Origin: a virus
Length of the DNA stretch: 36,998 nt
IMG/VR virus record: IMGVR_UViG_3300044294_000442
Span: 1-36,998 of that record
Strand: one strand, 5' to 3'
The notes beneath the pieces are model-generated. The model was not told the DNA's origin. It searched no databases and saw nothing but the letters and a program-made list of their open reading frames with translations. Each line of letters opens with the position of its first letter. Position 1 is the stretch's first letter. A program made the position numbers and the translations under genes. This document shows, in pieces, positions 23,735-31,473 of this stretch.

Positions 23735-24358
23735 CTATAATTTACTAGCTAAAACTATCTTGCAAATATGCTCTAATCTTTCTATGTGTTCAAATGCACG
23801 CCATGGACTTGTATCAACTGCAACTACACCATGATTAGCCATACCAATAATATTATATTTTATACTGCCATTAGCTAAATCATAACCAATATTTTTAATA
23901 CAAGCATCAGCTAATTCTTGTGTTATAGGAGGAATTAATGGAACTGTAGAGCCTATGCTAGTATATCTTGATAGTTCAGGAAACTCATTTACAAGATTAG
24001 GTAAGTTTAATTTTTTATACATAGCGGCTATAGTATATGTAGGATGCAAATGTAAAATTACTCTTACTTCTGTATTAATATTAGTCTGTAAACCAAAATG
24101 CATAGGTAACTCACCACTAGGTTTTAAATTATGACTTATTTTTGTATAAAATAATTCTTTTGGAATGGGAAATACTTTATCATAATAAAAACCTATTTTT
24201 TTAAACAACTCAGGTTGCAAAGTTTGTTTTCTAACCCCACTTGGAGTAATATAAAAAAATTGTTGTTCTTTATATCTAATACTAGCATTTCCATCTCGGG
24301 CAGTAATCCATCCTCTTATATAAGCTTCTTTAAAAATATCTGAAACAGTTTCTAACAT
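23735..24358 (-). CDS. Class II aldolase/adducin family protein
   Basis: Zinc-dependent aldolase or dehydratase of the L-fuculose-phosphate aldolase type, 207 residues. It has the substrate-phosphate loop GNAS at 24-27 and TPSG at 38-41, SGE with Glu83, the zinc ligands HLH (His103, His105) and a third His176 in MANHGVVAV. All catalytic ligands are present, so it should be active. It lies upstream of the GT2 and GT17 genes and may supply or divert a sugar phosphate. An AAGG ribosome-binding site precedes the ATG, and a strong terminator lies just upstream. Confidence 0.88.
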   Translation of the reverse strand: MLETVSDIFKEAYIRGWITARDGNASIRYKEQQFFYITPSGVRKQTLQPELFKKIGFYYDKVFPIPKELFYTKISHNLKPSGELPMHFGLQTNINTEVRVILHLHPTYTIAAMYKKLNLPNLVNEFPELSRYTSIGSTVPLIPPITQELADACIKNIGYDLANGSIKYNIIGMANHGVVAVDTSPWRAFEHIERLEHICKIVLASKL

Positions 24359-24496: not shown

Positions 24497-24622
24497 TTAT
24501 TGTACGACTGTTTCTATCAATTTTAAGTTTAAAAATTGATATTTATCTAAATACCAGTATAAATAATTACGTAGTACTGCATATTTAACAAAATTTGTAT
24601 TATTGTTTAAATTAGCCGTCAT
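24497..24622 (-). CDS. Possible 41-residue aromatic small protein
   Basis: An ORF of 41 codons (MTANLNNNTNFVKYAVLRNY...) starting inside the acidic tail repeat of the preceding gene and overlapping it by 11 nt. It is rich in Tyr, Leu and Asn and would form an amphipathic helix (YAVLRNYLYWYLDKYQFL). It fills most of the otherwise empty stretch before the terminator. There is no clear ribosome-binding site apart from the GA-rich repeat, and no family is recognised. I treat it as a candidate. Confidence 0.35.
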   Translation of the reverse strand: MTANLNNNTNFVKYAVLRNYLYWYLDKYQFLNLKLIETVVQ

Positions 24623-24842
24623 CTTCATCATCTTCATCATCTTCATGATCTTCATCATCTTCTGTTTCAGAAGAGCTTAAAACATTATGATTACTTAATA
24701 CTATAAGACTTACACCAGTATGACTACTCAATTCTTTAACTAAATTTGCAATTTTATATAAAAGATCTACATGATCATAATGATCTTCTTCATCGCATTC
24801 AAAACTAACACTTAAGTCGGCATGTTTAAATTCTAATTTCAC
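24612..24842 (-). CDS. Small protein with hyperacidic repeat tail
   Basis: The 76-residue protein has a small alpha/beta N-terminal domain (MKLEFKHADLSVSFECDEED ... LLYKIANLVKELSSHTGVSLIVL) and a C-terminal run of about 16 acidic residues made from a GAAGATGAT-type repeat. It has an AAAGGA ribosome-binding site and begins just after the tmRNA coding piece. Acidic tails are common in SSB-like and DNA-mimic proteins, but nothing more can be assigned. Confidence 0.65.
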   Translation of the reverse strand: MKLEFKHADLSVSFECDEEDHYDHVDLLYKIANLVKELSSHTGVSLIVLSNHNVLSSSETEDDEDHEDDEDDEDDG

Positions 24843-24912
24843 TTTAATTCCTTTATATTGTTATGTGGCGGTTATTGGTTAATAAGGTTAACCGCCAAAA
24901 CCCCAGTCTTGC

Positions 24913-24945
24913 TTATGCTGCTAAGACAAATACCTCATCATTGGC
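24913..24945 (-). other. tmRNA tag reading frame: ANDEVFVLAA
   Basis: Codons GCC AAT GAT GAG GTA TTT GTC TTA GCA GCA TAA give ANDEVFVLAA-stop. The resume codon is taken as GCC by analogy with the GCA of ANDENYALAA in E. coli. An in-frame TAA lies four codons upstream (three intervening codons), so translation must enter by the tmRNA mechanism. The ANDE start and LAA end are of beta/gamma-proteobacterial style. Alphaproteobacterial tags are usually longer and end VAA. Confidence 0.85.
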
Positions 24946-25047
24946 ATTTATTTTTTATTTGCTTTTTAGGTATTAACCGTAACGACTTCTGCATTGCCGA
25001 GTTGTCCACTAGTTTACTCATTGCCGCGTCGAAACCATGTCAGGCCC

Positions 25048-25129
25048 ATCAAAAACATTATTGTTTGGATTTGAATCTTGTTCTAGTATTGTCTATTTGC
25101 GCTTCTCATAGTGCTGACAATAATGCTTT
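25048..25129 (-). other. tmRNA intervening (excised) segment with 13-bp stem
   Basis: Between the mature CCA end (25130) and the mature 5' G (25047). AAAGCATTATTGT (25129-25117) pairs over 13 bp, with one G-U, with positions 25064-25052. This brings the two mature ends together in the precursor and extends the acceptor stem. The loop (25116-25065) would be removed during processing to two RNA pieces. Confidence 0.75.
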
Positions 25130-25207
25130 TGGTGGACCTGGGCGGATTCGAACCGCCGTCCGCTGTAATTTTCTCTTCGTTTCATACAACTATAATTAAT
25201 TTTATAT

Positions 25208-25402
25208 TTAATAGGAACACTCTAGTTGATTTAATAAATAAGTATAAATTTTATTACGACCAATACTAGTATTCCATAAATCATCAGGTAATTCTTCATC
25301 AAATGCACGATTTGGGCTATTCCACCAACGTTCAACTAAGTCATCATTACCTAGTAAGTTTTTTAAAATTTTATTAGCTTTTTCTTTATCTGATATTAAC
25401 AT
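25208..25402 (-). CDS. Small protein resembling the MbcA/ParS/Xre antitoxin toxin-binding domain
   Basis: The 64-residue protein has LLGNDDLVERWWNSPNRAF, then LPDDLWNTSIGRNKIYTYLLNQLE. The pattern W-(L/W)-x-x-PN-x-x-(F/L)-x-x-x-x-P-x-x-(L/W)-W/L-x-T-x-x-G-x-x-x-(V/I)-x-x-(Y/L)L resembles the DUF2384 domain of Xre/ParS antitoxins. It is found alone in many phages with unknown function. No toxin gene is adjacent. It lies directly upstream of ssrA (stop to acceptor piece about 25-40 nt), so both are probably on one transcript. Confidence 0.5.
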   Translation of the reverse strand: MLISDKEKANKILKNLLGNDDLVERWWNSPNRAFDEELPDDLWNTSIGRNKIYTYLLNQLECSY

Positions 25403-26523: not shown

Positions 26524-27534
26524 TTAGTTTAATAAGGCTGAAAATTCTTCACTAGCAAGATTTTTTTGTTTACTTTCACACATAATATCTGCCCAAGAAT
26601 TATGACTAGCTGCCCATTCATTTACTTTATTGTTCCAGTAATAGTCACTATGTGCTCGTAATTTAGTTGCTGTAAAACCCATGCTAGTAAGTAGTTTATA
26701 ATCTGGTAGTTCATCTGTTGAATGTTCAATAAGCACATCTTCTCTAGATATTGAATAATGTATAACAGGCCTAATTCCTCGCCACGAATCTTTAATTATA
26801 TTAATTCGTTGATCGTCTGGCTTAATATATTCTCCCTTACTGTAAATCCAGTGATGATGTATATCTAAAACTAAAGCACAATGTTTATGTAATTCTAAAC
26901 TATGTTCTAAGCCCCAAGTAAATTCAGCATTTTCAATTGTTAAAATATTGCGTGCTTCTGGACTTAATCTTTTAAGAGCATTAAGAATTCCTGAAGGTCC
27001 TTTTTTACCGCCGATATGTACATTGCACTTAAAATCTTGATATAATTTACCATAACCCATATAACGGGCAATATCAGTATGATATTCAAACTCAATGATA
27101 CTATTATCAACAATTTCATAGTTTTCGCTTGCTAATACACAAAATTGTCCCGGGTGAAAACTAAGGCGTACGTCTAAATTTCGTGCTATATTGCCTAGTT
27201 TAGTAAGATTATTTTCTAGATAATTTATTACATCTGGTTCAAAATAAAACCACATCCAATCTTTATGACTATATCCTGGGAATAGATCACTACTTAAACG
27301 AAACTGACGTTGTTTTTTAGGTAAGTTACCAACCCACTCTACTTGTCGTTTTAATACTTCGCAATTATGTTGTATAATAGTCCATAATTTTTCTACGGCT
27401 TTATCTTTAGTTTGTTTATTAAGATAAGCTAATGTTGTTGTAGTTGTATTTAAAGTTTTGTTTGCTTTATCATGACTACTTTGAATTTTGCACGCAAAAC
27501 CTATTCTTTTGATATTTATATCAAAGCTATGCAT
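26524..27534 (-). CDS. uvsE: UV damage endonuclease (UvdE/UvsE family)
   Basis: TIM-barrel DNA repair endonuclease that nicks 5' of UV photoproducts. The protein of about 336 residues starts MHSFDINIKRIGFACKI. I use the ATG at 27534, because the longer version starts at a TTG inside the upstream gene. Family motifs are present: RFRLSSDLFP-type QFRLSSDLFPGYSH, VRLSFHPGQFCVLAS, CNVHIGGKKGPS, LTIENAEFTWGL, LVLDIHHHWIY and KLRAHSDYYWNN. The His and Glu ligands of the metal cluster are all visible. It is useful to a phage of sunlit water. It overlaps nothing with this start and ends before a terminator. Confidence 0.93.
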   Translation of the reverse strand: MHSFDINIKRIGFACKIQSSHDKANKTLNTTTTTLAYLNKQTKDKAVEKLWTIIQHNCEVLKRQVEWVGNLPKKQRQFRLSSDLFPGYSHKDWMWFYFEPDVINYLENNLTKLGNIARNLDVRLSFHPGQFCVLASENYEIVDNSIIEFEYHTDIARYMGYGKLYQDFKCNVHIGGKKGPSGILNALKRLSPEARNILTIENAEFTWGLEHSLELHKHCALVLDIHHHWIYSKGEYIKPDDQRINIIKDSWRGIRPVIHYSISREDVLIEHSTDELPDYKLLTSMGFTATKLRAHSDYYWNNKVNEWAASHNSWADIMCESKQKNLASEEFSALLN

Positions 27535-27536
27535 TT

Positions 27537-27731
27537 TTACTGCCACCGTCCTGCAGGACAATGATTATTCGGTTTTTTGTTGTATATAGATATTATTTTA
27601 TCGTTTTTAGAACATATATCTGTTATAAAATTTCTATAAATACATAATTTGCATAATTTTTGTCGCAATTTATACATTTCTTCTAAGTTTATTTGTTGAG
27701 GAGGCTGTCCTCCTATATTTATATTTATCAT
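27537..27731 (-). CDS. Small four-cysteine protein, probable zinc-binding
   Basis: The 64-residue protein has KLCKLCIYRNFITDIC ... NNHCPAGRW, giving a CxxC-(9)-C-...-C pattern that ends CPxGRW. I recall this type from many phage hypothetical proteins, but not its function. It ends 3 nt before the UV endonuclease start and so is probably coupled to it. Confidence 0.65.
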   Translation of the reverse strand: MININIGGQPPQQINLEEMYKLRQKLCKLCIYRNFITDICSKNDKIISIYNKKPNNHCPAGRWQ

Positions 27732-28908: not shown

Positions 28909-29313
28909 TTAGTTAATTATAATAACTTTTGGTTTTTTGTTTTCAGGAATTATTTGTTCTAAATATACATTTAACATACCATCTTTATATTCTGCATATT
29001 TAATTTTAATATTGTCTTGAATATACAAACTTTTTTCAAAGTTACGCATTGCTAATCCTCTATAGACATAATTTTTACGATCTTCTTGATCTACTTTACG
29101 TCCGCGAATTGCTAACATATTTTCATTAAGTTCTATAGATAGCTCAGTTTTAGTAAAACCAGCTGCTGCTAATTCTATAAGCCAATTATTTTCATCTAGT
29201 TTTATTACATTATGTGGGGGATAGGTTTTTGTACTACTACGTACATTATCTAGTTGATTAAAAATTCTATCAAACCCAATAATTGCGTGATTTACTAAAT
29301 CTAGTTGTGTCAT
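28909..29313 (-). CDS. Small heat shock protein, Hsp20/IbpA type
   Basis: ATP-independent chaperone that holds unfolding proteins, 134 residues. The alpha-crystallin domain runs from about residue 38: WLIELAAAGFTKTELSIELNENMLAIRGRK, then YVYRGLAMRNFEKSLYI and the family hallmark A-x-x-x-x-G-x-L as AEYKDGML. It ends with an I-x-I-like VIIIN tail that docks onto neighbouring subunits. The N-terminus is short. It has a strong AAGGAG ribosome-binding site that is predicted to be hidden in a ROSE-like hairpin, and a long structured leader starting at a promoter near 29591-29619. Hsp20 genes are known in cyanophages, where they may aid virion assembly. Confidence 0.9.
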   Translation of the reverse strand: MTQLDLVNHAIIGFDRIFNQLDNVRSSTKTYPPHNVIKLDENNWLIELAAAGFTKTELSIELNENMLAIRGRKVDQEDRKNYVYRGLAMRNFEKSLYIQDNIKIKYAEYKDGMLNVYLEQIIPENKKPKVIIIN

Positions 29314-30620: not shown

Positions 30621-30766
30621 TGTATAAGTACAAACTTTAAATACGGATTAATGAATATTAAATATTATCTGCATATGTATAGGCAAATAATAATTATAAT
30701 GCTAAATTAATAGGTAAACCCAATATGGATAAAATAATATATTCAACTATACAAGAGAAGAATAAT

Positions 30767-31087
30767 ATGTTAGTAATTACTAATAAAGCTTATAATCAAA
30801 TAGAACAAGTAATGCTAGAAGAAAATACTACAGATCCACTTAGAGTGTTTGTACAAGGAGGAGGCTGTAGTGGATTTCAATATGGATTTACTTTTGATGA
30901 AAATCAAGCAGAAGATGATTTTGTATTTGAACATAATAGTGTAAAAGTATTAGTAGATGCTATATCTATGACTTATCTTAGCGGAGCAGAAATAGATTAT
31001 AAGAAAGATATTGGTTCAGCACAATTTGTAATTAAAAATCCAAATGCTACTACTACCTGCGGCTGTGGGTCAAGTTTTGGAGCATAG
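30767..31087 (+). CDS. erpA: A-type iron-sulfur carrier, ErpA-like
   Basis: Carries Fe-S clusters from the scaffold to apoproteins. The 106-residue version starting at the ATG of 30767 (MLVITNKAY) is preferred because an AGAGAAG ribosome-binding site precedes it. An in-frame ATG at 30725 would add 14 residues. It closely follows E. coli Erp[16 protein letters not shown] with Cys34, and [16 protein letters not shown] with Cys98 and Cys100, the three ligands of A-type carriers. It is intact and near-canonical, unlike most phage copies of metabolic genes. Its stop is 2 nt from the iscU start. Confidence 0.92.
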
Positions 31088-31089
31088 TT

Positions 31090-31473
31090 ATGCCATATTC
31101 ATTACAAGTTTTAGATCATTATGAAAATCCTCGTAATGTAGGAAGTTTTTCTAAAGAAATAAAAAGAATAGGTACGGGTATGGTTGGTGCACCTGCTTGT
31201 GGTGATGTTATGAAATTACAAATACAAGTAAATAAAGAAGGATTAATTACAGATGCTAAATTTAAAACATATGGTTGTGGAAGTGCTATTGCAAGTAGTT
31301 CATTAATTACAGAATGGGTTAAAGGAAAAACACTTGATCAAGCAGCTAAAATTAAAAATGTTGATATTGCGGAAGAACTTTCTTTACCTCCAGTCAAGAT
31401 TCATTGTTCAATTCTAGCAGAAGACGCAATTAAAGCAGCTATAGCTGATTTTAAATCTAAATATCAAGAATAA
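31090..31473 (+). CDS. iscU: Iron-sulfur cluster scaffold protein IscU
   Basis: Scaffold on which IscS-derived sulfur and iron are assembled into [2Fe-2S]. At 127 residues it matches bacterial IscU over its whole length. It has Cys37 in GAPACGD with Asp39, Cys63 in YGCGSAIASSSL, the HscA chaperone-recognition motif LPPVK at 99-103, and Cys106 in HCSILAEDAI. All ligand and partner-binding positions are conserved. This implies it can use the host IscS and HscA/HscB, because no cysteine desulfurase or chaperone gene is present here. With the erpA-like gene 2 nt upstream it makes a scaffold-plus-carrier pair. Confidence 0.96.
   Translation: MPYSLQVLDHYENPRNVGSFSKEIKRIGTGMVGAPACGDVMKLQIQVNKEGLITDAKFKTYGCGSAIASSSLITEWVKGKTLDQAAKIKNVDIAEELSLPPVKIHCSILAEDAIKAAIADFKSKYQE

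Follow-up and report, generated by a model that had tools for sequence, protein, structure and literature searches.

Circularly permuted tmRNAs, which consist of two RNA pieces, are already published and common in phages. Two-piece forms account for 53 of the 133 unique phage tmRNA structures in one survey, 50 being from marine or aquatic samples, and such a tmRNA is carried by Methylophilales phage Melnitz (PMC9004378). Another study lists 79 unique bacteriophage tmRNAs, gives 10 residues as the most frequent tag length and describes a permuted bacterial tmRNA gene with a repetitive element in its intervening sequence (PMC11915505). The tmRNA of mycobacteriophage DS6A is little beyond a tRNA-like domain, and a molecule of this kind strongly inhibits tmRNA, perhaps by SmpB titration (PMC4131195).

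A stringent scan for the permuted pattern matched at least 119 environmental viral contigs, and ARAGORN called tmRNA* at 76 of the 79 loci among the matches listed from that scan. Permuted copies were also identified with ARAGORN and RF04321 in isolates, namely Stenotrophomonas phages Yut2 (whose copy is annotated ssrA), Marzo and the Moby group, Xanthomonas phages X1 and Rb1, Alcaligenes phage QDWS595 and Acinetobacter phage BUCT628. The original prediction had regarded a permuted copy in a phage as unusual, a view that does not stand against the published structures, the annotated Stenotrophomonas phage copies and the viral contigs. The gene described here adds another of that type.

The window, that is, the whole stretch of DNA analysed, is a linear fragment of 36,998 bases from an IMG/VR virus record. 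This record is a fragment from an uncultured T5-like phage. The nearest isolates of its DNA polymerase are T5-like phages (approximately 47% identity), and many viral contigs encode polymerases that are 72–86% identical to it. A T5-type replication gene set is present, comprising the DNA polymerase, a two-part NAD ligase, a D5-like regulator and an SbcC/SbcD-like pair, and a DnaB-like helicase and a primase are also among the replication genes. The structural genes lie outside the fragment. Other genes of the fragment encode a UvdE UV-endonuclease (26524–27561, minus strand), a class II aldolase-like protein (23735–24358, minus strand), an Hsp20-like protein (28909–29313, minus strand) and, in two neighbouring genes at 30725–31473 on the plus strand, the iron-sulphur cluster assembly proteins Fe-S_biosyn (IscA-like) and NifU_N (IscU-like).

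A complete circularly permuted tmRNA gene lies on the minus strand of this fragment at approximately 24822–25238. The Rfam model RF04321 (tmRNA_permuted) matched 25191–24913 (minus strand), scoring 108.6 bits where its cut-off is 47, with an E value of 1.7e-20, computed over the whole window and all 4227 Rfam families. ARAGORN called tmRNA* at 25222–24822 (minus strand) with the tag ANDEVFVLAA. Under permissive settings, the beta_tmRNA model RF01850 aligned over its full length (1–331) to 25238–24861 with an E value of 6.6e-23, and its score of 75.5 bits is below its own cut-off of 84, so that the gene is classed as nearest to beta_tmRNA and not as one; phage relatives such as L109, L115 and L117 exceed this cut-off. 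The parts of the gene are as follows, in transcript order and ending with the downstream neighbour.

25130–25222, minus strand: piece 1, first in the transcript (ARAGORN tmRNA* 24822–25222, RF04321 from 25191, direct reading)
25186–25191, minus strand: distal P2 strand AGTTGT of piece 1 (RF04321 alignment, phage-copy alignment)
25141–25157, minus strand: T-arm GGCGG-TTCGAAT-CCGCC with a canonical T-loop (sequence; T-stem paired in 24 of 24 phage copies)
25134–25140, minus strand: 3′ strand of the acceptor stem, CAGGTCC, with U70 (7 of 7 pairs with 25041–25047)
25048–25129, minus strand: intervening segment of 82 nt, expected to be removed (fold)
25063–25118, minus strand: 56-nt element GTCAGCACTATGAGAAGCGCAAATAGACAATACTAGAACAAGATTCAAATCCAAAC in the intervening segment (BLAST, pattern search)
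25041–25047, minus strand: 5′ strand of the acceptor stem, GGGCCTG (sequence, RF04321, phage-copy alignment)
25027–25040, minus strand: D-loop ACATGGTTTCGACG, without a D-stem (RF04321 alignment)
25000–25005, minus strand: distal P2 strand ACAACT of piece 2, partner of AGTTGT at 25186–25191 (fold, phage-copy alignment)
24946–24999, minus strand: PK1 region and A-rich run ahead of the resume codon (phage-copy alignment)
24913–24945, minus strand: tag frame, GCC to TAA (ARAGORN, RF04321 alignment)
24866–24897, minus strand: 3′ hairpin TGGCGGTTAACC to AACCGCCA (beta_tmRNA alignment, fold, kept in relatives)
24612–24842, minus strand: acidic ORF of 76 aa, directly downstream of the tmRNA (tblastn)

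Piece 1 contains the distal P2 strand, the T-arm, the 3′ strand of the acceptor stem and the CCA end, and its 5′ end is a prediction. CAGGTCC is followed by ACCA ending at 25130, so that CCA is encoded in the gene. Piece 2 is predicted to begin, once mature, at 25047. The acceptor stem is paired at all seven positions, with G3-U70 as its sole G-U pair; G3-U70 is the alanine identity pair. A D-loop without a D-stem is a typical tmRNA feature. The proximal P2 strand lies between the D-loop and ACAACT, and the distal P2 helix joins the two pieces. In PK1, P3 is formed by CGGC and GTCG, and the loop TGC pairs with a downstream GCA. The 3′ hairpin corresponds to the final hairpin in the beta_tmRNA model.

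The tag ANDEVFVLAA-stop is encoded by GCC AAT GAT GAG GTA TTT GTC TTA GCA GCA TAA and has a hydrophobic end. Diverged relatives keep tags of the form ANDxx(F/Y)ALAA, and among the copies compared only that of the fragment has V in place of A at the fourth-last tag residue (GTC for GCC). Long tags of 23–33 residues are found in other phage permuted tmRNAs (L162, L167, L169, L172, L174, L191, L201, L224–L228, L230, L232, L235 and others). An example is ANADTFDFSAMSFTGNTVSGKSKVALAA, and synonymous differences occur between long-tag copies.

The gene shares with RF04321 the gene order, the G3-U70 acceptor, the T-arm, the stemless D-loop, the inter-piece P2 and the tag frame, but differs in its encoded CCA and in its 82-nt hairpin intervening segment with the 56-nt element. 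It aligns to RF01850 over the full length including the last hairpin, although with a score under the cut-off. As in Melnitz-type marine phages, a complete permuted ssrA is carried by a phage without its own integrase. The two differ in that Melnitz, a T4-like myophage, has a tmRNA of the alphaproteobacteria type together with a glutamine riboswitch, whereas the fragment belongs to a T5-like phage with a beta-type tmRNA, and Rfam gave no riboswitch match in the window. The ssrA genes of the Stenotrophomonas, Xanthomonas, Alcaligenes and Acinetobacter phages are likewise permuted with a related tRNA-like half, but these phages belong to unrelated families and have other tags, such as VAANDDSYTVRIAA and ANDNVYAAAA. 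In BLASTN searches against isolated phages, the fragment's tmRNA gene found no match as a query, and its relatives did.

Such a locus might be imitated by a normal one-piece tmRNA, or by two tRNA-like genes of which one supplies a T-arm and the other a D-loop in a chance pairing. False pairs of this kind do occur. A permuted host form was sought with stringent phage-like patterns across 84,980 genomes of bacteria and archaea and none was found, which does not imply its absence; one host-form scan gave 0 matches, and the other, with a broad pattern, gave four, which ARAGORN called one-piece tmRNA in three cases and no tmRNA in one. At the phage locus, the one-piece model RF00023 is absent at the gathering threshold, and both direct reading and ARAGORN place the T-arm and acceptor 3′ half ahead of the acceptor 5′ half, the reverse of the one-piece order. 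Within the tRNA/tmRNA clan, the top model at this place is the permuted beta_tmRNA, in a comparison that reports the best-scoring model and omits lower-scoring ones. The concordance of the permuted models with ARAGORN and the covariation of the two halves across 24 phage copies refute the one-piece or chance-pairing reading, which retains practically no probability. The original prediction of a complete circularly permuted two-piece tmRNA is thus borne out by RF04321, ARAGORN and all structural details tested. Its 7-bp pairing of GGGCCTG with CAGGTCC was confirmed in the sequence, the strand order and tag frame that it gave are correct there, as are its predicted ends (25130 and 25047), and the comparison of Rfam models that it proposed placed the permuted model over its cut-off and beta_tmRNA, not the one-piece model, at the top of the clan.

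At least 21 out of 50 records of related phages, searched whole, gave an RF04321 score above the cut-off, a lower bound because the remaining records are fragments. For covariation, 24 copies were aligned with the two pieces re-joined in silico, comprising 22 environmental phage copies, some of them near-identical, and isolates (L117, L118, L137 and L138 were excluded). All seven acceptor pairs are kept in 24 of 24 copies and G3-U70 is invariant, with positions 4–6 varying by pair type (CG/GC, TA/AT/CG and others). The acceptor types are GGGCCTG, GGGCCAG, GGGGCTG, GGGCTCG, GGGCCCG, GGGGGTG and GGGGATG, in a comparison of acceptor types and intervening segments that excluded L129, L138, L145 and L155. 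Compensatory changes occur in P2, distal P2, the T-stem and P3 of PK1. Distal P2 is paired in 23–24 of 24 copies per position, P3 in 18–22 of 24 and the P4 core of PK1 in 24 of 24, the last with a few compensatory changes. Both P2 and PK1, which the original prediction had proposed to locate by folding the pieces together, were therefore found, with pairs that carry compensatory changes across phage copies. These changes were counted without tree-aware significance in related sequences that are not independent, and several of the exchanges are in distantly related copies. The RNA is under selection, as indicated by compensatory changes in the helices that join the pieces. Natural T-loop variants were also seen. 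The T-loop TTCGAAT is changed to TGCRAAT alongside a change of TGG to TAG in the D-loop, and GGCAGT-type T-loops occur with other D-loops (L114, L122, L126, L127; L123, L128; L129, L155). From their sequences, these variants suggest a rewired T-loop/D-loop contact.

In every contig in which tblastn found the acidic downstream ORF, the tmRNA lies directly upstream of it. This arrangement bears on the origin of the gene. Attachment sites are often located in tmRNA genes, and a bacterial ssrA could have been acquired by imprecise excision or as an attachment site and be a functionless relic in the phage; such an origin has been raised for the Melnitz tmRNA (PMC9004378). However, the gene is complete and is kept across phages with polymerases as low as 72–75% identical, its helices show compensatory changes where decay would be expected of a relic, its downstream neighbour is fixed, and the proteins checked in the fragment include no integrase. 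A relic is therefore very unlikely.

We consider the locus to be a working permuted ssrA of a T5-like phage that would keep ribosome rescue going together with host SmpB, with a probability of roughly 80%. We infer that it is expressed, processed and charged, uses host SmpB and benefits the phage in the following way. A single precursor would be transcribed from the minus strand, and host tRNA-processing enzymes would excise the hairpin-forming intervening segment. The two RNA pieces would stay joined through the acceptor stem and P2 helices and would be charged by host alanyl-tRNA synthetase through G3-U70. Host SmpB and EF-Tu would then deliver the tmRNA to ribosomes stalled on broken mRNA, where the ribosome would resume on the tmRNA frame and append A-ANDEVFVLAA, and the tagged protein would be degraded by host proteases such as ClpXP. 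The likeliest benefit would be that ribosomes are kept free for phage proteins while host DNA is destroyed and mRNA fragments accumulate. The phage may in this way control ribosome rescue and tagging, as the original prediction proposed. T5 destroys host DNA early, so the host ssrA would not be renewable. In several relatives, the tmRNA adjoins tRNA genes, as if in a translation kit. Points against a working gene are that promoter matches right upstream of the tmRNA occurred only at the level of shuffled sequence, that the tag has its singular V, and that the beta_tmRNA score stays under its cut-off.

SmpB (PF01668) was not detected in 27 phage records including this fragment, all of them incomplete. 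Host SmpB is therefore probably the partner, and a phage SmpB might sit on the missing part since all the records are fragments. The lack of an SmpB gene in these records, together with the DS6A precedent (PMC4131195), would also suit an interfering RNA that titrates host SmpB or retags proteins, blocking or redirecting host trans-translation instead of supplementing it. In contrast to DS6A, where mostly the tRNA-like domain is present, the fragment's copy keeps its tag and pseudoknot. The tag frame, PK1 and 3′ hairpin are intact and constrained, and mere titration would not need them. Because the tag and pseudoknot are kept, full function in ribosome rescue is favoured, and interference is considered unlikely.

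A tag-less permuted tRNA-like RNA was found in other large phages (L146, L149, L150 and L154, and L156 at approximately 300–490 on the minus strand). Its order is T-arm, ACTCCCC-ACCA, hairpin spacer, GGGGAGT, D-arm-like hairpin and long outer helix, and these fold together with a 7-bp acceptor stem. The second half and the CCA region alone are present in L148, and four relatives (L157–L160) have a compensated T-stem and a different intervening loop. This RNA scores only 15.1 bits with the Rfam model tmRNA_permuted, has G-C in place of G-U at the third position of the acceptor stem, and received no call from ARAGORN. The phages that carry it have large tRNA arrays, and one contig is 218 kb. It may correspond, in permuted form, to the tRNA-like domain of DS6A.

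In the predicted precursor fold of the fragment's tmRNA, the intervening segment folds into a long hairpin that stacks on the acceptor stem and continues it. Intervening segments are modular, with unrelated sequences but an outer hairpin in nearly all phage copies, and L124 is the clear exception. In L124 (1574–1729; L083:14407–14562 in the same contig), the segment carries a 52-codon open frame that starts ATGAAATCAGTAGAAGAA and, having crossed the 5′ strand of the acceptor stem, extends into the mature RNA.

The 56-nt element lies inside the excised segment in this fragment but stands free in relatives, immediately 5′ of the tmRNA in L129 (1808–1863) and immediately 3′ of it in L117 (1382–1437) and L118 (1887–1942), with a BLAST identity of 82–88% in these three. 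It is always closed by a complementary stem whose sequence differs between sites, and its pattern matched 12 contigs. The core of the element also occurs in the intervening segment of the tag-less RNA (L156:377–432 and others), where L129 and L156 are 100% identical. No Rfam family matched the element. A tRNA was considered on account of its T-loop-like ATTCAAATCC and was rejected, as there is no convincing T-stem and no ARAGORN or Rfam tRNA call. It can be tentatively speculated that the excised segment is not waste and that a single permuted precursor might give rise both to a two-piece tmRNA and to a small RNA of its own.

With this gene, a T5-like lineage whose synteny appears to be conserved joins the phages that encode their own ribosome-rescue RNA, and two dozen diverged copies are now available for comparison. 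These findings suggest that the permuted form is common among environmental phages and not a curiosity. Phages of Stenotrophomonas, Xanthomonas and Acinetobacter carry the permuted form, whereas these host groups generally have one-piece tmRNA; if those hosts are one-piece, the form of the phage tmRNA does not follow that of the host. The tag-less permuted relatives, long tags and modular excised segments raise concrete questions.
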